64,000 nt of DNA from the NCBI RefSeq assembly GCF_900172265.1, contig NZ_FWFK01000004.1, positions 434,001-498,000 of the forward strand, in the 5' to 3' direction. Positions 24,040-30,810 of the stretch are shown here, one piece after another; the first letter of the stretch is position 1, and the number at the start of each line of letters is the position of its first letter. The notes under the pieces are model-generated. The model worked only from the letters and a program-made list of their open reading frames with translations, did not search any database and was not told the DNA's origin. Made by a program: the position numbers and the translations under genes. Origin of the DNA: Roseivivax jejudonensis. GTDB lineage: Bacteria; Pseudomonadota; Alphaproteobacteria; Rhodobacterales; Rhodobacteraceae.

Positions 24040-24068
24040 TTGAGAACATTTGGTGAACACGCTATCTT
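24040..24068 (+). promoter_or_regulatory. Promoter of the ImuA-like gene with a LexA box in its spacer
   Basis: A -35 TTGAGA (24040-24045) and a -10 TATCTT (24063-24068) are 17 bases apart. The spacer holds GAAC-ATTTGGT-GAAC (24044-24058), which on the other strand is GTTC-N7-GTTC, the alphaproteobacterial LexA box. Bound LexA would cover the -35 and spacer. The expected start of transcription is at or next to the ATG at 24075, and no ribosome binding site is visible, so the mRNA may be leaderless. Confidence 0.75.
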
Positions 24069-26054: not shown

Positions 26055-28571
26055 TCACTCGCGCGCACGCAGGACCTGTGCGGGCCGCGCCGCGAGTGGT
26101 CGCCAGGCGAAGGCGAGGCCCGCCGCGAGCGTCGCCACCACGCCCCCCGCGACGATGCCGAGGGCCGACGGCCACACCGGCGAAAACGATGTCTCCATCA
26201 CGAAAGTCGACACCGCCCACCCGCCGCCGATGCCGGCGAAGATGGCGACGAGCCCCGCACCCGCGCCCAAAAGCCCGGCCCGAAGCGCGAAGCTCGCGAG
26301 GATGCGCCCGCGTGCGGCGCCCAGCGTCTTGAGCACCGCCGCCTCGTAGGTGCGCGCCTGCTCGCCCACCGCGGCCGCGCCAATCAGCACGAGAAACCCG
26401 GTCACCAGCGTCGCCGCCGCGCCCCAGCGCACCGCCTCCGACACCCCGGCCAGCAACTCGGACACCCTGTCGATCGCGTCGCGCACGCCGATCGCGGTGA
26501 CGTTTGGCATCTCGTCGGCGACCGCGCGCAGCACGTCGGCCTCCGCCTCCGCGTCGGCATAGACCGTCGAGATGAAGGTATGCGGCGCGTCCCGAAGCGC
26601 GGCAGGGTTCATCGCCATGATGAAGCCGATTCCGGCGGTCGAGAAATCGACGACCCGAAAGCTCGTGATCTCGGCGGTGATGTCGCGGCCGAGGATGTTC
26701 ACGGTGATCTCGTCGCCGAGTTCCAGCCCGATCTCGGCGGCCTCCTCGGCGGCAAAGCTGACCTGGGGCGGCCCGTCGTATCCCTCGGGCCACCAGTCGC
26801 CCGCCGTGATCCGGGTGTCCTCGGGCGGGCGCTCGGAATAGGTCACGCCGCGGTCGCCCCGGATCACCCAGTGTTCGCCCGCCACGTCCTGCGCGGACCG
26901 GCCGTTGATCTCGGTGATGATGCCGCGCAGCATCGGCGCGGACTGCACGCGCGCGACCGCCGGATCGCCTTCGACGATCTCGCGAAAGCGCGGCATCTGG
27001 TCCCGCTGGATATCGACGAAGAAATAGGACGGCGCGACCTCGGGAAGATCCCGGCTGATCGCGGCACGCAGGTTGCCGTCGATCTGGCCGATGGCCGCCA
27101 GCACGGCAAGCCCGAGGCCGAGCGACAGGACGACGGACGCCGCCTCGTCGCGCGGTCCGCCGATCGCGCCCAAGGCCCAGCGCAGCGCCGGGCGCCCCCG
27201 CGCCGCCGGTGCCGCCCGCCGCGCCAGCAGGCGCAGCCCGGCGGCAGCCGCGACGAGGACCAATAGCGAGCCCAGGATCCCGCCCGCCGTCCAGAGCGTC
27301 AGTTCGACCGCGCCGGAGAACAGGATCGCCAGACCCACGAGCGCCACGAGCAGCACCGCCGTCGCGGCGATGTAGCGCGGCGCGGGCAGCGCCCGCGCCG
27401 AGGCCAGCGCATCGCGAAAGAGAGTGGCTGCGCGCACCTCCTCGGTCCGGGCAAGCGGCCAGAGCGTGAACAGGAGGGCCGTCAGGATCCCGTAGATCGC
27501 CGCCTCGGCCAGCGGACCGGGATGCAGGCCGAACGCCGCCGGCACCGGCAGCGCATCCGAGATCAGCGGAGAGAAGACGAGCGGCAACGCCGCCCCGAGG
27601 CAGAGCCCGATGATGATTCCCAGAAGCGCGAGCGCGCCGACCTGCAGGAAATAGGTCTGGAAGATCGTCGCCCGCGTCGCGCCGAGCGTCCGCAGCGTGG
27701 CGATCACGCTCGTCTTGCGCGCAAGATAGGCGCGCACCGCAGCCGACACGCCGATGCCGCCGACGGCGAGCCCCGACAACCCGACGAGGATCAGGAAGGC
27801 TCCCAGCCGGTCCACGAACTGCGCGGTGCCGGGGGCCCCGTTGCGCGCGTCGCGCCAGCGGATGCCGGCATCGCGGTAGCGCCGCTCCGCTTCGGCCGCG
27901 AGCGCGTCGAGGTCGGCACCGTCCGGCAGGTCCAGCCGGTACTCCGTCTCGAAAAGCGTGCCAGGCGACAGCAGGCCCGTCCCGTCGAGCGCGTCGCTCC
28001 TCACGATGGTGCGCGGCCCCAGGTCGAACCCGCCGCCGGCATCGTCGGGCTCGGTCTCCAGCCGCGCGCGGAAGGTGAAGTCCTTGTCTCCCAGCCGCAC
28101 CGTGTCGCCCGGCGCGATGCCGAGCCGGTCCGCCAGGATCGGCGCCATCACCACGCCGTCGTCGGCCAACGCCTCCGACAGCGGCATCTCGGGCGACAGC
28201 TCGACCGCGCCCAGAAGAGGATAGGCGTCGTCCACCGCCTTGACCTGCGTCAGTCCGCGCTCGGCCCCGCCGTCGCGCGGCACCACGGCCATCGACCGGA
28301 AGTCCGCGATCTCCGACACCTCGTCGGAGATACTCTCGAGCCACGTGCGCTCGTCCTCGGTGGCGAAGCGATAGGTGAACTGCGCCTGCGCGTCGCCGCC
28401 CAGCAGCACCGCGCCCTGTTCTTCGAGCCCGGCCTGGATCGCGGAGCGCACCGAGCCGACGCCGGCGATCGCCGCGACCCCGAGCGCGAGGCAGGCGAGG
28501 AAGATCCGGAACCCGCGCAGCCCGCCGCGCAATTCGCGGCGCGCAAAGGTGGCCGCCGTCCGCAGGCTCAT
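26055..28571 (-). CDS. ABC transporter permease, YbbP-like (FtsX family)
   Basis: An 838-aa inner membrane protein with two FtsX-type domains. An N-terminal helix (residues 19-42) is followed by a large periplasmic domain (about 43-250), four helices (about 255-410), more helices near 440-500, a second periplasmic domain and three C-terminal helices. Blocks VGLSGLAVGGIGVSAAVRAY and TLRTLGATRATIF are typical, as is the C-terminal KTLGAARGRILASF. It is the partner of the upstream ATPase, with a 4-base ATGA overlap. E. coli YbbP is close in size; substrate unknown, possibly a lipid or envelope export role. Confidence 0.93.
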   Translation of the reverse strand: MSLRTAATFARRELRGGLRGFRIFLACLALGVAAIAGVGSVRSAIQAGLEEQGAVLLGGDAQAQFTYRFATEDERTWLESISDEVSEIADFRSMAVVPRDGGAERGLTQVKAVDDAYPLLGAVELSPEMPLSEALADDGVVMAPILADRLGIAPGDTVRLGDKDFTFRARLETEPDDAGGGFDLGPRTIVRSDALDGTGLLSPGTLFETEYRLDLPDGADLDALAAEAERRYRDAGIRWRDARNGAPGTAQFVDRLGAFLILVGLSGLAVGGIGVSAAVRAYLARKTSVIATLRTLGATRATIFQTYFLQVGALALLGIIIGLCLGAALPLVFSPLISDALPVPAAFGLHPGPLAEAAIYGILTALLFTLWPLARTEEVRAATLFRDALASARALPAPRYIAATAVLLVALVGLAILFSGAVELTLWTAGGILGSLLVLVAAAAGLRLLARRAAPAARGRPALRWALGAIGGPRDEAASVVLSLGLGLAVLAAIGQIDGNLRAAISRDLPEVAPSYFFVDIQRDQMPRFREIVEGDPAVARVQSAPMLRGIITEINGRSAQDVAGEHWVIRGDRGVTYSERPPEDTRITAGDWWPEGYDGPPQVSFAAEEAAEIGLELGDEITVNILGRDITAEITSFRVVDFSTAGIGFIMAMNPAALRDAPHTFISTVYADAEAEADVLRAVADEMPNVTAIGVRDAIDRVSELLAGVSEAVRWGAAATLVTGFLVLIGAAAVGEQARTYEAAVLKTLGAARGRILASFALRAGLLGAGAGLVAIFAGIGGGWAVSTFVMETSFSPVWPSALGIVAGGVVATLAAGLAFAWRPLAARPAQVLRARE

Positions 28572-29260
28572 TCCGCGGCCCGGAGCGTCGCGCCCTCGGC
28601 CCGGCCGTCGCGCAGCCGCACGACCCGGTCGCAGCGATCCGCCAGCGCGGGCGCGTGGGTGACGAGGACGAGCGTCGCGCCATGCCGATCGCGCAGCCCG
28701 AACAGCAGATCGACGATCGCCTCGCCGGTCTGGCCGTCAAGATTGCCGGTCGGCTCGTCCGCCAGCAGAATCTCGGGCCGCGGCGCCGCGGCGCGGGCCA
28801 GCGCCACGCGCTGCTGTTCGCCGCCCGACATCTGCGAGGGATAGTGATCGAGCCGCTGCCCGAGCCCGATCGCGTCGAGCTCGGCCCGGGCCCGGTCGAA
28901 GGCGTCCGGCGCGCCGGCAAGCTCCAGCGGCGTCGCCACGTTCTCGAGTGCGGTCATCGTCGGGATCAAATGGAAGGACTGGAATACCACGCCCATGTGA
29001 TCGCGCCGGAACCGGGCCAGCGCGTCCTCGTCCATCGCCGTGAGATCCTGCCCGAGCGCGCGCACGTCACCGCCCGTCGCGCGTTCGAGCCCGCCCATGA
29101 TCATCAAGAGTGACGACTTCCCCGACCCTGACGGCCCGACGAGGCCGAGCGTCTCGCCCCGCGCGACATCGAGCGTGATCCCGTGCAGGATCTCGACCGG
29201 GCCGGCATTGCCCATCAGCCGAAGGGTCACATCTTTGAGCGAAAGAACATGATCGGTCAT
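28568..29260 (-). CDS. ABC transporter ATP-binding protein, YbbA-like
   Basis: A 230-aa ATPase of the LolD/MacB-like group. Walker A is GPSGSGKSS, the signature is MSGGEQQRVALARAAA, Walker B is ILLADEPTGNLD, and the switch His is in VLVTHAPALADRCD. It overlaps the permease gene by four bases. It is divergent from the tesA gene 18 bases away, reproducing the E. coli tesA/ybbA-ybbP layout. Confidence 0.95.
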   Translation of the reverse strand: MTDHVLSLKDVTLRLMGNAGPVEILHGITLDVARGETLGLVGPSGSGKSSLLMIMGGLERATGGDVRALGQDLTAMDEDALARFRRDHMGVVFQSFHLIPTMTALENVATPLELAGAPDAFDRARAELDAIGLGQRLDHYPSQMSGGEQQRVALARAAAPRPEILLADEPTGNLDGQTGEAIVDLLFGLRDRHGATLVLVTHAPALADRCDRVVRLRDGRAEGATLRAAE

Positions 29261-29278
29261 TCGGAGGATACGCGCCCT

Positions 29279-29977
29279 ATGGTTTGCCTGACGCGATATG
29301 GGGCCGCGACGCGGCGCAGCAAGACGGCGCTCTGGCTCGTGGTCTGGGGCATGTCCGCCTCGGCGCCGGCGGCGCAGACGACGGAAATCGTCGCGCTCGG
29401 CGATTCGCTCACTCAGGGCTACGGCCTTATGGAGCAGAACGGCTTCGTCCCGCAGCTGGAGGCGTGGCTGACGGAGCGCGGACATGACGTGGACGTGATC
29501 AATGCCGGCGTCTCGGGCGACACGACAGCCGGCGGCCTGTCGCGCGTCGACTGGTCGCTGAGCGAGGAAACCGACGCCATGATCGTGGCGCTCGGCGGCA
29601 ACGACCTGTTGCGCGGGATCGACCCGGCAGTCTCGCGCGAGAACCTCTCCGGCATCCTCGACGTCGCCGCGTCGCGCGACCTGCCGGTGCTGCTTGCCGG
29701 CCTCACCGCACCGGGAAATTACGGCGCCGACTACAAGCAGTCGTTCGAGGCGATCTTTCCCGACCTCGCCGAGGAATACGACGCGCGGCTGTTTCCCGAT
29801 TTCCTCGGCCCCCTGCGCGAGGACGACGACACCGCGAGCATGCAGGGCTTCATGCAGTCCGACGGGATCCATCCCAACGCAGAAGGCGTGACGCGCATCG
29901 TCGAGGCGATCGGCCCCGAGGTGGAAGCGCTGATCGAGCCTGCGCCCGACGAGACTTCGGAGGCCGGGTCGAACTGA
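29279..29977 (+). CDS. tesA: Multifunctional acyl-CoA thioesterase/lysophospholipase, TesA-like arylesterase
   Basis: A 232-aa SGNH hydrolase secreted through an N-terminal signal peptide (residues 1-32, ending APAAQ). Block I is ALGDSLTQGYG with nucleophile Ser43, block III is ALGGNDLLRG and block V is DGIHPNAEG with the catalytic Asp and His. Enzymes of this type cleave thioesters, aryl esters and lysophospholipids. I chose ATG 29279, which has a GGAGG site 11 bases upstream; earlier in-frame ATGs would overlap the ybbA gene. It is followed one base later by the SRAP gene. Confidence 0.92.
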   Translation: MVCLTRYGAATRRSKTALWLVVWGMSASAPAAQTTEIVALGDSLTQGYGLMEQNGFVPQLEAWLTERGHDVDVINAGVSGDTTAGGLSRVDWSLSEETDAMIVALGGNDLLRGIDPAVSRENLSGILDVAASRDLPVLLAGLTAPGNYGADYKQSFEAIFPDLAEEYDARLFPDFLGPLREDDDTASMQGFMQSDGIHPNAEGVTRIVEAIGPEVEALIEPAPDETSEAGSN

Positions 29978-29978
29978 C

Positions 29979-30590
29979 ATGCCGGGGCGGCTCTTCATCG
30001 ACGCGCCGCTGGCCGACGCCGCCCGCGAGGCCGGCGTCCCCGCCCCGCCCGCGGCGGAGCCGCGCCTCGATATCTCGCCCGGCGAACCGCTCTGGACGCT
30101 GACAGTCGACGGGTTTCGCGAGATGCGCTGGGGGCTGATCCCCTCGGGCCGCACCAACGCGCGCGGCCGCCCGGTTCTCGAGACGCTGATCAACGCGCGG
30201 TCCGAAACCGTGTTCGACAAGAGCGCCTTCGCCGGGCTGAAGCGCGCGGTCGTGCCGATCAATGGCTGGTACGAATGGACCGGCCCGCCGCGGCGCAAGA
30301 CACGTTGGGCCCTGCGTGACCGGGACGGCGGCTGGCTGTGGTGCGCGGCTGTGTGGGACGAGTGGCAGGCGCCGGGCGGCACGAGGGTCGCGCAACTGGC
30401 GACTCTGACCTGCGCGCCCAACGCGGAGGTCGCGCCGATCCACGACCGCATGGGCGTCATGCTGTCGGCGGAGGCTATACGGACGTGGCTGAGGGGGGAC
30501 GAACCCGAGGCGCGCGCGCTGTGCACGCCGCTGCCGGACGGGCGAGTGGCCGTGTCCGAGACGCCGGCCCCGGACACGGCACGCGGCTAG
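29979..30590 (+). CDS. SRAP (YedK/HMCES) family protein with Cys2 replaced by Pro
   Basis: A 203-aa SOS-response-associated protein family member. Canonical SRAP proteins start MCGR; after Met removal the Cys bonds to abasic sites in single-stranded DNA. Here the start is MPGRLF, with Pro in place of Cys. The other active-site residues are kept: Asn72 in INARSET, Glu99 in PINGWYEW and His155 in APIHDRMGVML, and RWGLIPSG is intact. So the fold and DNA site look functional while the nucleophile is changed. The start codon cannot be moved, because MPGRLF is itself the family start. It is co-transcribed with tesA. Confidence 0.9.
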   Translation: MPGRLFIDAPLADAAREAGVPAPPAAEPRLDISPGEPLWTLTVDGFREMRWGLIPSGRTNARGRPVLETLINARSETVFDKSAFAGLKRAVVPINGWYEWTGPPRRKTRWALRDRDGGWLWCAAVWDEWQAPGGTRVAQLATLTCAPNAEVAPIHDRMGVMLSAEAIRTWLRGDEPEARALCTPLPDGRVAVSETPAPDTARG

Positions 30591-30603: not shown

Positions 30604-30810
30604 TCACATGAGCTGCAGGTCGACCGCGGATTCGCGGCCGTCGCGGCCCGACTGGATCTCGAAAGACACTTTCTGGTTGTCCTGAAGACCGGTCAGGCCC
30701 GAACGCTCCACGGCGCTGATGTGAACGAACACGTCCTTCGATCCGCCATCGGGCGCGATGAAGCCGTAGCCTTTTGTAGCATTGAACCATTTGACGGTGC
30801 CGGTGGCCAT
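30604..30810 (-). CDS. Cold-shock domain protein (CspA family)
   Basis: A 68-aa single-stranded nucleic-acid-binding protein. RNP1 is KGYGFIAP and RNP2 is [26 protein letters not shown] is the classic start. GAGAGGAG lies seven bases before the ATG. The upstream gap (30811-31053) would include a structured 5' leader of the kind used for temperature control in csp mRNAs. Its stop is 13 bases from the convergent SRAP gene. Confidence 0.97.

Follow-up and report, generated by a model that had tools for sequence, protein, structure and literature searches.

A conserved group of SRAP-family proteins in Rhodobacterales with proline in place of the catalytic cysteine

Judged from the sequences, the SRAP proteins of Rhodobacterales in which proline occupies the position of the catalytic Cys2 represent a genuine variant within the SRAP family, natural and conserved. 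They probably constitute a natural thiol-free form of SRAP, which would form a Schiff base with abasic (AP) DNA and then either release it or act upon it as an AP lyase. The protein studied here is encoded in Roseivivax jejudonensis (GCF_900172265.1), within a stretch of 64,000 nt (NZ_FWFK01000004.1, positions 434,001-498,000, forward strand) that is referred to below as the window.

Cys2 underlies the protection of abasic sites by YedK and HMCES; PMC3765255, in its account of the SRAP family, holds it to be absolutely conserved and in every case residue 2. A natural Pro2 group with an otherwise complete active site therefore offers a ready-made test of shielding versus release versus cutting. 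Among the papers listed by a literature search at the level of titles and abstract openings, with few subscription papers, none treats natural Pro2 or other non-Cys SRAPs or reports activity for the Pro2 group, which does not show their absence from print.

Results and Discussion

A SRAP protein with proline at residue 2

The gene and its principal features are as follows, in window coordinates:

29979..30590, + strand: gene for a SRAP-family protein of 203 amino acids, a member of the Pro2 group (open reading frame, Pfam match, orthologues)
29982..29984, + strand: codon 2, CCG, encoding Pro2 where the catalytic Cys2 is expected
30147..30170, + strand: group-specific loop from Gly57-Arg58 to Arg64 (GRTNARGR), from alignment against standard copies
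30192..30194, + strand: Asn72, equivalent to YedK Asn75
30273..30275, + strand: Glu99, equivalent to YedK Glu105, general acid/base
30441..30443, + strand: His155, equivalent to YedK His160, which takes part in AP-site ring opening in YedK

The translation opens MPGRLFID, with an ATG start codon followed by CCG. The protein belongs to Pfam family PF02586 (SRAP), which it matches over profile positions 1-202 of 214 with 125.7 bits (E 2.5e-36) against a curated cut-off of 27.1 bits; SRAP was its sole Pfam match at E<=0.001, and the Fpg/Nei profile was not matched. Of the features that define the Cys2 cross-linkers YedK and HMCES, it has lost the cysteine at residue 2, which is Pro, and possesses the active-site Asn, Glu and His. 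Like Fpg/Nei proteins, it is encoded with an N-terminal proline directly after Met.

An AlphaFold2 model of the window protein, run on an alignment of 33 sequences of which two were from the Pro2 group, has a mean pLDDT of 90.7 and a pTM of 0.87. In a Foldseek search, 21 PDB chains were matched at E<=0.001, comprising YedK, HMCES and structural-genomics SRAP entries; entries 1zn6, 2f20, 2aeg and 2bdv are named as SRAP structures in PMC3765255. The best match was 2f20 (E 6.6e-14), with YedK-DNA complexes from E 1.7e-13, and the matches include 8d2m, the Schiff-base complex of YedK C2A with abasic DNA. The predicted model thus has the SRAP fold by AlphaFold2 and Foldseek. Across the 21 chains, the TM-score by query length was 0.63-0.84, the rmsd 3.4-6.0 Å and the identity 20-25%, and the superposition on the YedK chains is loose (rmsd 3.4-4.2 Å). 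No entry with the Fpg/Nei fold was present among the 50 Foldseek matches listed of 555.

Conservation of Pro2

A search with the window protein gave matches at E<=1e-10 in 104 of 149 same-family genomes, its own included, and a distinct group stood at 188-457 bits in 17 of the 149, other listed matches reaching at most 84 bits. Profile A1, built from 18 group members, recovered a member in 62 of 292 genomes sampled from the order (scores of 301-352 bits in 61 of them and 250 bits in genome G320), the best match below the group being 148 bits; in the phylum sample of 299 genomes only five matches exceeded 148 bits, all in the window's family. The same-family and order-sample searches share six genomes, giving 73 genomes of the window's family combined, to which one named member from a Pseudooctadecabacter contig (order Rhodobacterales) adds the last of 74 orthologue loci. 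Matches also occurred in 454 plasmid and 33 phage records, every one of which stayed below 60% identity even at its best-matching place.

Residue 2 is proline in all 74 loci read, including that of genome G173, where a stop lies further along the frame, and that of G369, which opens MPGQ instead of MPGR. These loci yield 71 distinct full-length proteins, that is, all except L111, L112 and the broken L114. The 71 start with ATG (63) or GTG (8), and codon 2 is CCG in 49, CCC in 18, CCA in three and CCT in one; because all four proline codons are used, it is the amino acid itself that is kept. In 60 of the 71, the stretch from the preceding in-frame stop to the Met-Pro codons contains no ATG, GTG or TTG. 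Asn72, Glu99 and His155 are present in 71/71, and the alignment has thirty columns without variation, including P2, G3, N72, R74, E99, W100, T144, H155 and R157. Arg4 is conserved in 70 of the 71 and Arg74, Thr144 and Arg157 in every one, as they are in most Cys2 SRAPs. The NG86 dN/dS ratio has a median of 0.105 and a range of 0.05-0.24 (58 usable of 92 pairs within 72-98.5% identity); the protein is constrained and under purifying selection.

Could the proline nevertheless stem from a sequencing error at codon 2, a wrongly assigned start or a gene in decay? One orthologue does carry an in-frame stop: L114 is the only SRAP match of G173, a Pro2 gene interrupted early that is either a pseudogene or the product of a sequencing error. 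For the Pro2 group at large, the constancy of Pro2, the lack of an alternative upstream start in 60/71, the synonymous variation at codon 2 and the low dN/dS led all three explanations to be rejected, and an artefact is barely credible. The original prediction, which was made from the window alone, held that proline had replaced Cys2 while Asn72, Glu99 and His155 were retained, and proposed that SRAP proteins of Rhodobacterales be aligned for position 2. Both statements are confirmed, the second by alignment with Asn75, Glu105 and His160 of YedK, and the codon-2 error that it had named as a possible refutation is ruled out for the group.

Cys145 was considered as a source of a replacement thiol and rejected. 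It is Cys in 68 of the 71 proteins, Thr in two and Val in one; because it varies within the group and several Cys2 copies carry Cys in that motif too, it is no substitute for Cys2.

Standard SRAPs in the carrier genomes

Three SRAP matches were found in the window genome (4.3 Mb, 21 contigs). The window copy scored 125 bits in this genome-wide search, and its contig also carries, at a distance of about 62 kb, a standard MCGR copy (G000 C16:527156-527749, 218.8 bits), so that the normal copy which had been said beforehand to weaken the need for the Pro2 protein does exist. The third match is an ORF on contig C6 (L003:1468-1983) with 43.6 bits over profile positions 63-194; the three frames just upstream of it hold no SRAP N-terminus, and it is either a fragment or a diverged copy. 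The MCGR protein (L001:1477-2094) ends early, without the VNSN-type C-terminal segment of its relatives.

A standard-type SRAP of at least 213 bits was likewise found in 51 of the 72 other carrier genomes, and Cys2 is present in all 24 of those 51 that were read (L153-L175, L202). Among 40 second SRAPs from carriers, residue 2 is Cys in 39; the other has no visible N-terminus. Because these 51 genomes and the window genome possess a standard SRAP as well, the Pro2 SRAP is mostly an added paralogue. The Pro2 gene is the sole SRAP match in seven genomes of 99-100% completeness (G359, G340, G350, G169, G369, G257 and G173, the last with its in-frame stop), and G078 and G146 (83% completeness) likewise show only this gene. 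Such Pro2-only species raise the question of how abasic sites in single-stranded DNA are handled without a stable cross-linker.

Active-site residues in other SRAPs

An alignment of 193 SRAP proteins was assembled from 116 with Cys2, the 71 of the Pro2 group, a deeper-branching Pro2 copy from G320, and five whose second residue is Ala (two proteins), Thr (two) or Ser (one). It does not take in every distant SRAP fetched: ORFs whose profile match starts after position 25 (a number of distant SRAPs, as well as L111, L112 and L114), three ORFs with no clear start codon, identical proteins, and L214, L215, L220 and L223, whose starts are unsure, were dropped. L111 and L112 both open MPGR, and their Asn, Glu and His can be read. 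The position-2 counts are not family frequencies, because some rows were hand-picked for low-scoring SRAPs and the loci from genome searches are the best-scoring ones.

Asn, Glu and His are kept together in 114 of the 116 Cys2 proteins, the remaining two being without Asn and His, and all three are retained in the deeper-branching G320 copy. None of the five proteins with Ala, Thr or Ser has the complete set; Asn and His are gone from all five and Glu from three. Both Ala proteins and one of the Thr proteins come from family f41, of the window's phylum and another class, which was searched separately. Matches were obtained in 78 of 81 f41 genomes, in six of which a stop interrupts the matched region, and the best 30 loci of the 78 matching genomes all open MAGR and have lost Asn, Glu and His in 30/30, with a gap at the Asn column, Val, Ile, Leu or Ala for Glu, and Ser, Thr or Gly for His. 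Arg4, Arg77, Trp106, Thr149 and Arg162 are retained in all 30. The f41 Ala2 SRAP (L277-L306, together with L205, which has Thr2, L206 and L207; L277 and L206 denote one gene) looks like a non-catalytic DNA binder with the SRAP fold.

The alignment thus shows the acid-base residues to be missing, in whole or in part, from the other alignable SRAPs without Cys2, and complete in the Pro2 group. As Asn, Glu and His are invariant here and not kept as a set in the other non-Cys proteins, Pro2 is, by this comparison, a maintained change within a complete active site.

Two further sets of SRAPs were seen. In a short SRAP type from family f34 (L229, L218, L216, L217), residue 2 varies between Cys, Ser and Thr, and Asn and His are absent even with Cys2. 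Of 31 viral SRAP loci, 29 open MCGR; in one the Met-Cys belongs to a different motif, and one has an unclear start.

With a second SRAP present in most of its carriers, the protein might have a regulatory role. Pro2 might merely block cross-linking, leaving a non-catalytic binder of AP sites or single-stranded DNA that regulates, competes with or partners the Cys2 paralogue. The standard SRAPs in 51 of 72 carriers speak for such a binder, as does the existence of f41, a conserved non-Cys SRAP family of non-catalytic appearance. Yet what f41 has lost in 30/30 the Pro2 group keeps in 71/71, its position 2 shows no drift, and in seven carriers, at least 99% complete, no second SRAP was matched (one of them with the in-frame stop). 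A purely binding role is considered unlikely.

A rebuilt loop and the origin of Pro2

Comparison of the 71 Pro2-group proteins with 41 standard copies of the window's family shows that the loop preceding Asn72 has been rebuilt. Gly57 (69/71) and Arg58 (71/71) stand where the standard copies have Trp (41/41) and Tyr (41/41), the position of Trp67-Trp68 in YedK, and are followed, ahead of Asn72, by an Arg-rich insert with N60 in 70 of the 71 proteins and A61, R62 and R64 in all of them. Elsewhere, Trp97 replaces Phe or Tyr (71/71) and Pro147 replaces Ala (70/71).

With this loop rebuilt, the substrate may have changed as well. The same Pro2/Glu/His chemistry might be directed at 3'-PUA ends, oxidised or formylated bases, or a peptide or small-molecule aldehyde; YedK itself is reported to react with 3'-PUA ends and formaldehyde (PMC9436759), and the invariant Arg58, Arg62 and Arg64 replace the Trp pair. 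Against a switch of substrate, Arg4, Arg74, Thr144 and Arg157 are retained, as in most Cys2 SRAPs, and such a switch is regarded as quite unlikely.

Two Pro2 SRAP genes lie about 2 kb apart in G320 (L123:5274-5864 and L123:7925-8533). The second has Pro2, the Gly-Arg pair, the Trp and Pro147, is without the insert, and is closer to the standard copies, which makes it a possible evolutionary intermediate. In a tree of 49 rows, computed with the first four columns left out and with 19 of the 71 Pro2-group proteins (36 were used in another thinned tree), the branch separating the Pro2 group is supported at 100/99 and that of the group plus the second G320 copy at 100/98, the bootstrap being not fully settled. 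Since the tree places the second G320 copy as sister to the Pro2 group, Pro2 most simply arose once. An independent second origin in G320 is disfavoured, though not firmly: forcing this copy among the standard family copies gave a tree worse by 17.95 lnL, with a p-AU of 0.066.

Gene neighbourhood

The genes surrounding the SRAP gene in the window are as follows:

29183..29977, + strand: tesA-like GDSL esterase, directly upstream with a 1-nt gap (listed start; the true start may be downstream)
28568..29260, - strand: ORF, presumably an ABC transporter ATPase, divergent from tesA
26055-28571, - strand: ORF, presumably an FtsX-like permease, after the ATPase gene
30604..30810, - strand: ORF, presumably a cold-shock protein, downstream on the opposite strand

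The names of the last three are those we take to fit their sequences. The stop codon of the tesA-like gene occupies 29975-29977, and the SRAP gene starts one base later. Context was read in 38 loci of the 73 carrier genomes, chosen with flanks of about 3 kb and not drawn at random. The gene directly upstream on the same strand is tesA in 26 of the 38, a divergent ATPase gene lies upstream in 27 (one a weak, 34% match), the FtsX-like permease is present in 26, and a cold-shock-type gene follows on the other strand in 30. The earlier remark that the gene is coupled to tesA and not to repair genes therefore holds, the former in 26/38 loci and the latter in that no repair-gene link was found in the neighbourhoods examined.

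The LexA motif of alphaproteobacteria reads GTTCN7GTTC or GAACN7GAAC. Neither form occurs in the 40 loci scanned (the 38 context loci, L004 and L001), and control of the Pro2 gene by a LexA-type SOS box was rejected on that ground. The 64-kb window holds one LexA-type motif, at 24044, about 5 kb from tesA, which is near chance by our own estimate. The gene neighbourhood does not reveal the function of the protein.

Proposed mechanism

The chemistry of YedK is described in PMC9436759. Opening of the AP sugar is the work of His160 and Glu105; Glu105 also helps the amino group of residue 2 to attack, and the thiazolidine is finally closed by the thiol of Cys2. When this thiol is missing, YedK makes no stable cross-link, but it can be trapped with borohydride and AP-DNA is cleaved; the trapped Schiff base is reported for both C2A and C2S and lyase rates for C2A, with fitted rates of 0.05 for cleavage and 1.7 for the trapped Schiff base, making C2A a slow lyase. 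The E105Q mutation strongly slows both trapping and cleavage, H160Q slows cleavage 2.5-fold, and cleavage still follows, via ring opening alone, when the N-terminus is blocked. For Nei2, PMC11323726 reports that the N-terminal Pro2 is essential for AP lyase activity on single-stranded DNA, that P2C is inactive, and that Met1 is not seen in the crystal.

A Schiff base is to be expected of the Pro2 SRAPs because they combine the acid-base parts of YedK with the nucleophile of Nei2. Methionine aminopeptidase would remove Met1 and free the secondary amine of Pro2. On an AP site, probably in single-stranded DNA, His155 and Glu99 would open the sugar to the aldehyde, and Glu99 would assist the attack of Pro2 on C1' to give an iminium (Schiff base). 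Because thiazolidine closure at residue 2 is, we infer, chemically excluded when that residue has no thiol, the adduct would either hydrolyse, amounting to a brief and reversible hold, or go on to beta-elimination and a strand cut 3' to the lesion, as in an AP lyase. The Pro2 SRAP would then process, or briefly mark, AP sites that its Cys2 paralogue would shield for hours. We lean towards lyase activity in vitro; cleavage alone would be no proof of Pro2 chemistry, since N-blocked YedK also leads to it.

That this lineage may have swapped a stable cross-link for reversible Schiff-base or lyase chemistry was proposed in the original prediction. The function it proposed is plausible and is now better, though partly, supported, as the acid-base residues are invariant here, the other alignable non-Cys SRAPs lack some or all of them, and YedK mutants lacking Cys2 perform such chemistry. 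The word swapped is too strong, given the standard SRAPs that 51 of 72 carriers keep.

N-terminal prolines act as a general base or acid in tautomerase-type enzymes, and from this role in other enzymes it might be argued that Pro2 serves in the same way here instead of as a nucleophile on AP sites. The residues retained, on the other hand, are the ones on which YedK relies to open the ring and form the Schiff base, and a tautomerase-type role is very improbable.

Extending the Schiff-base mechanism to a lineage history is more tentative and falls somewhat short of probable: a Rhodobacterales lineage may have evolved a dedicated thiol-free AP lyase for single-stranded DNA from a SRAP shield, its proline nucleophile converging on that of Fpg/Nei, with shield and lyase kept side by side or the lyase alone. 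If this is true, one N-terminal residue and a rebuilt loop before the active-site Asn turn an abasic-site protector into a processor.

Comparison with known systems

The window protein shares with YedK and HMCES the fold, the Pfam family, Gly3-Arg4, and the equivalents of YedK Asn75, Glu105, His160, Arg77, Thr149 and Arg162. Unlike them, it has Pro2 rather than Cys2, and hence no thiol at residue 2 for thiazolidine closure, Gly-Arg and an Arg-rich insert rather than Trp67-Trp68, and a shorter C-terminus. The f41 Ala2 SRAPs are likewise homologues without Cys2, but they have lost the Asn, Glu and His that the Pro2 group keeps.

The C2A and C2S mutants of YedK (8d2m being C2A) resemble the Pro2 SRAPs in combining a thiol-free residue 2 with intact acid-base residues; the Pro2 SRAP, however, is natural, and its residue 2 offers a secondary amine where the mutants have a primary one. 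With the Fpg/Nei proteins it has in common a proline encoded directly after Met, which in mycobacterial Nei2 is needed for AP lyase activity on single-stranded DNA (PMC11323726). Neither the family search nor the fold matches listed link the two, and it is the chemistry alone that is proposed to converge.
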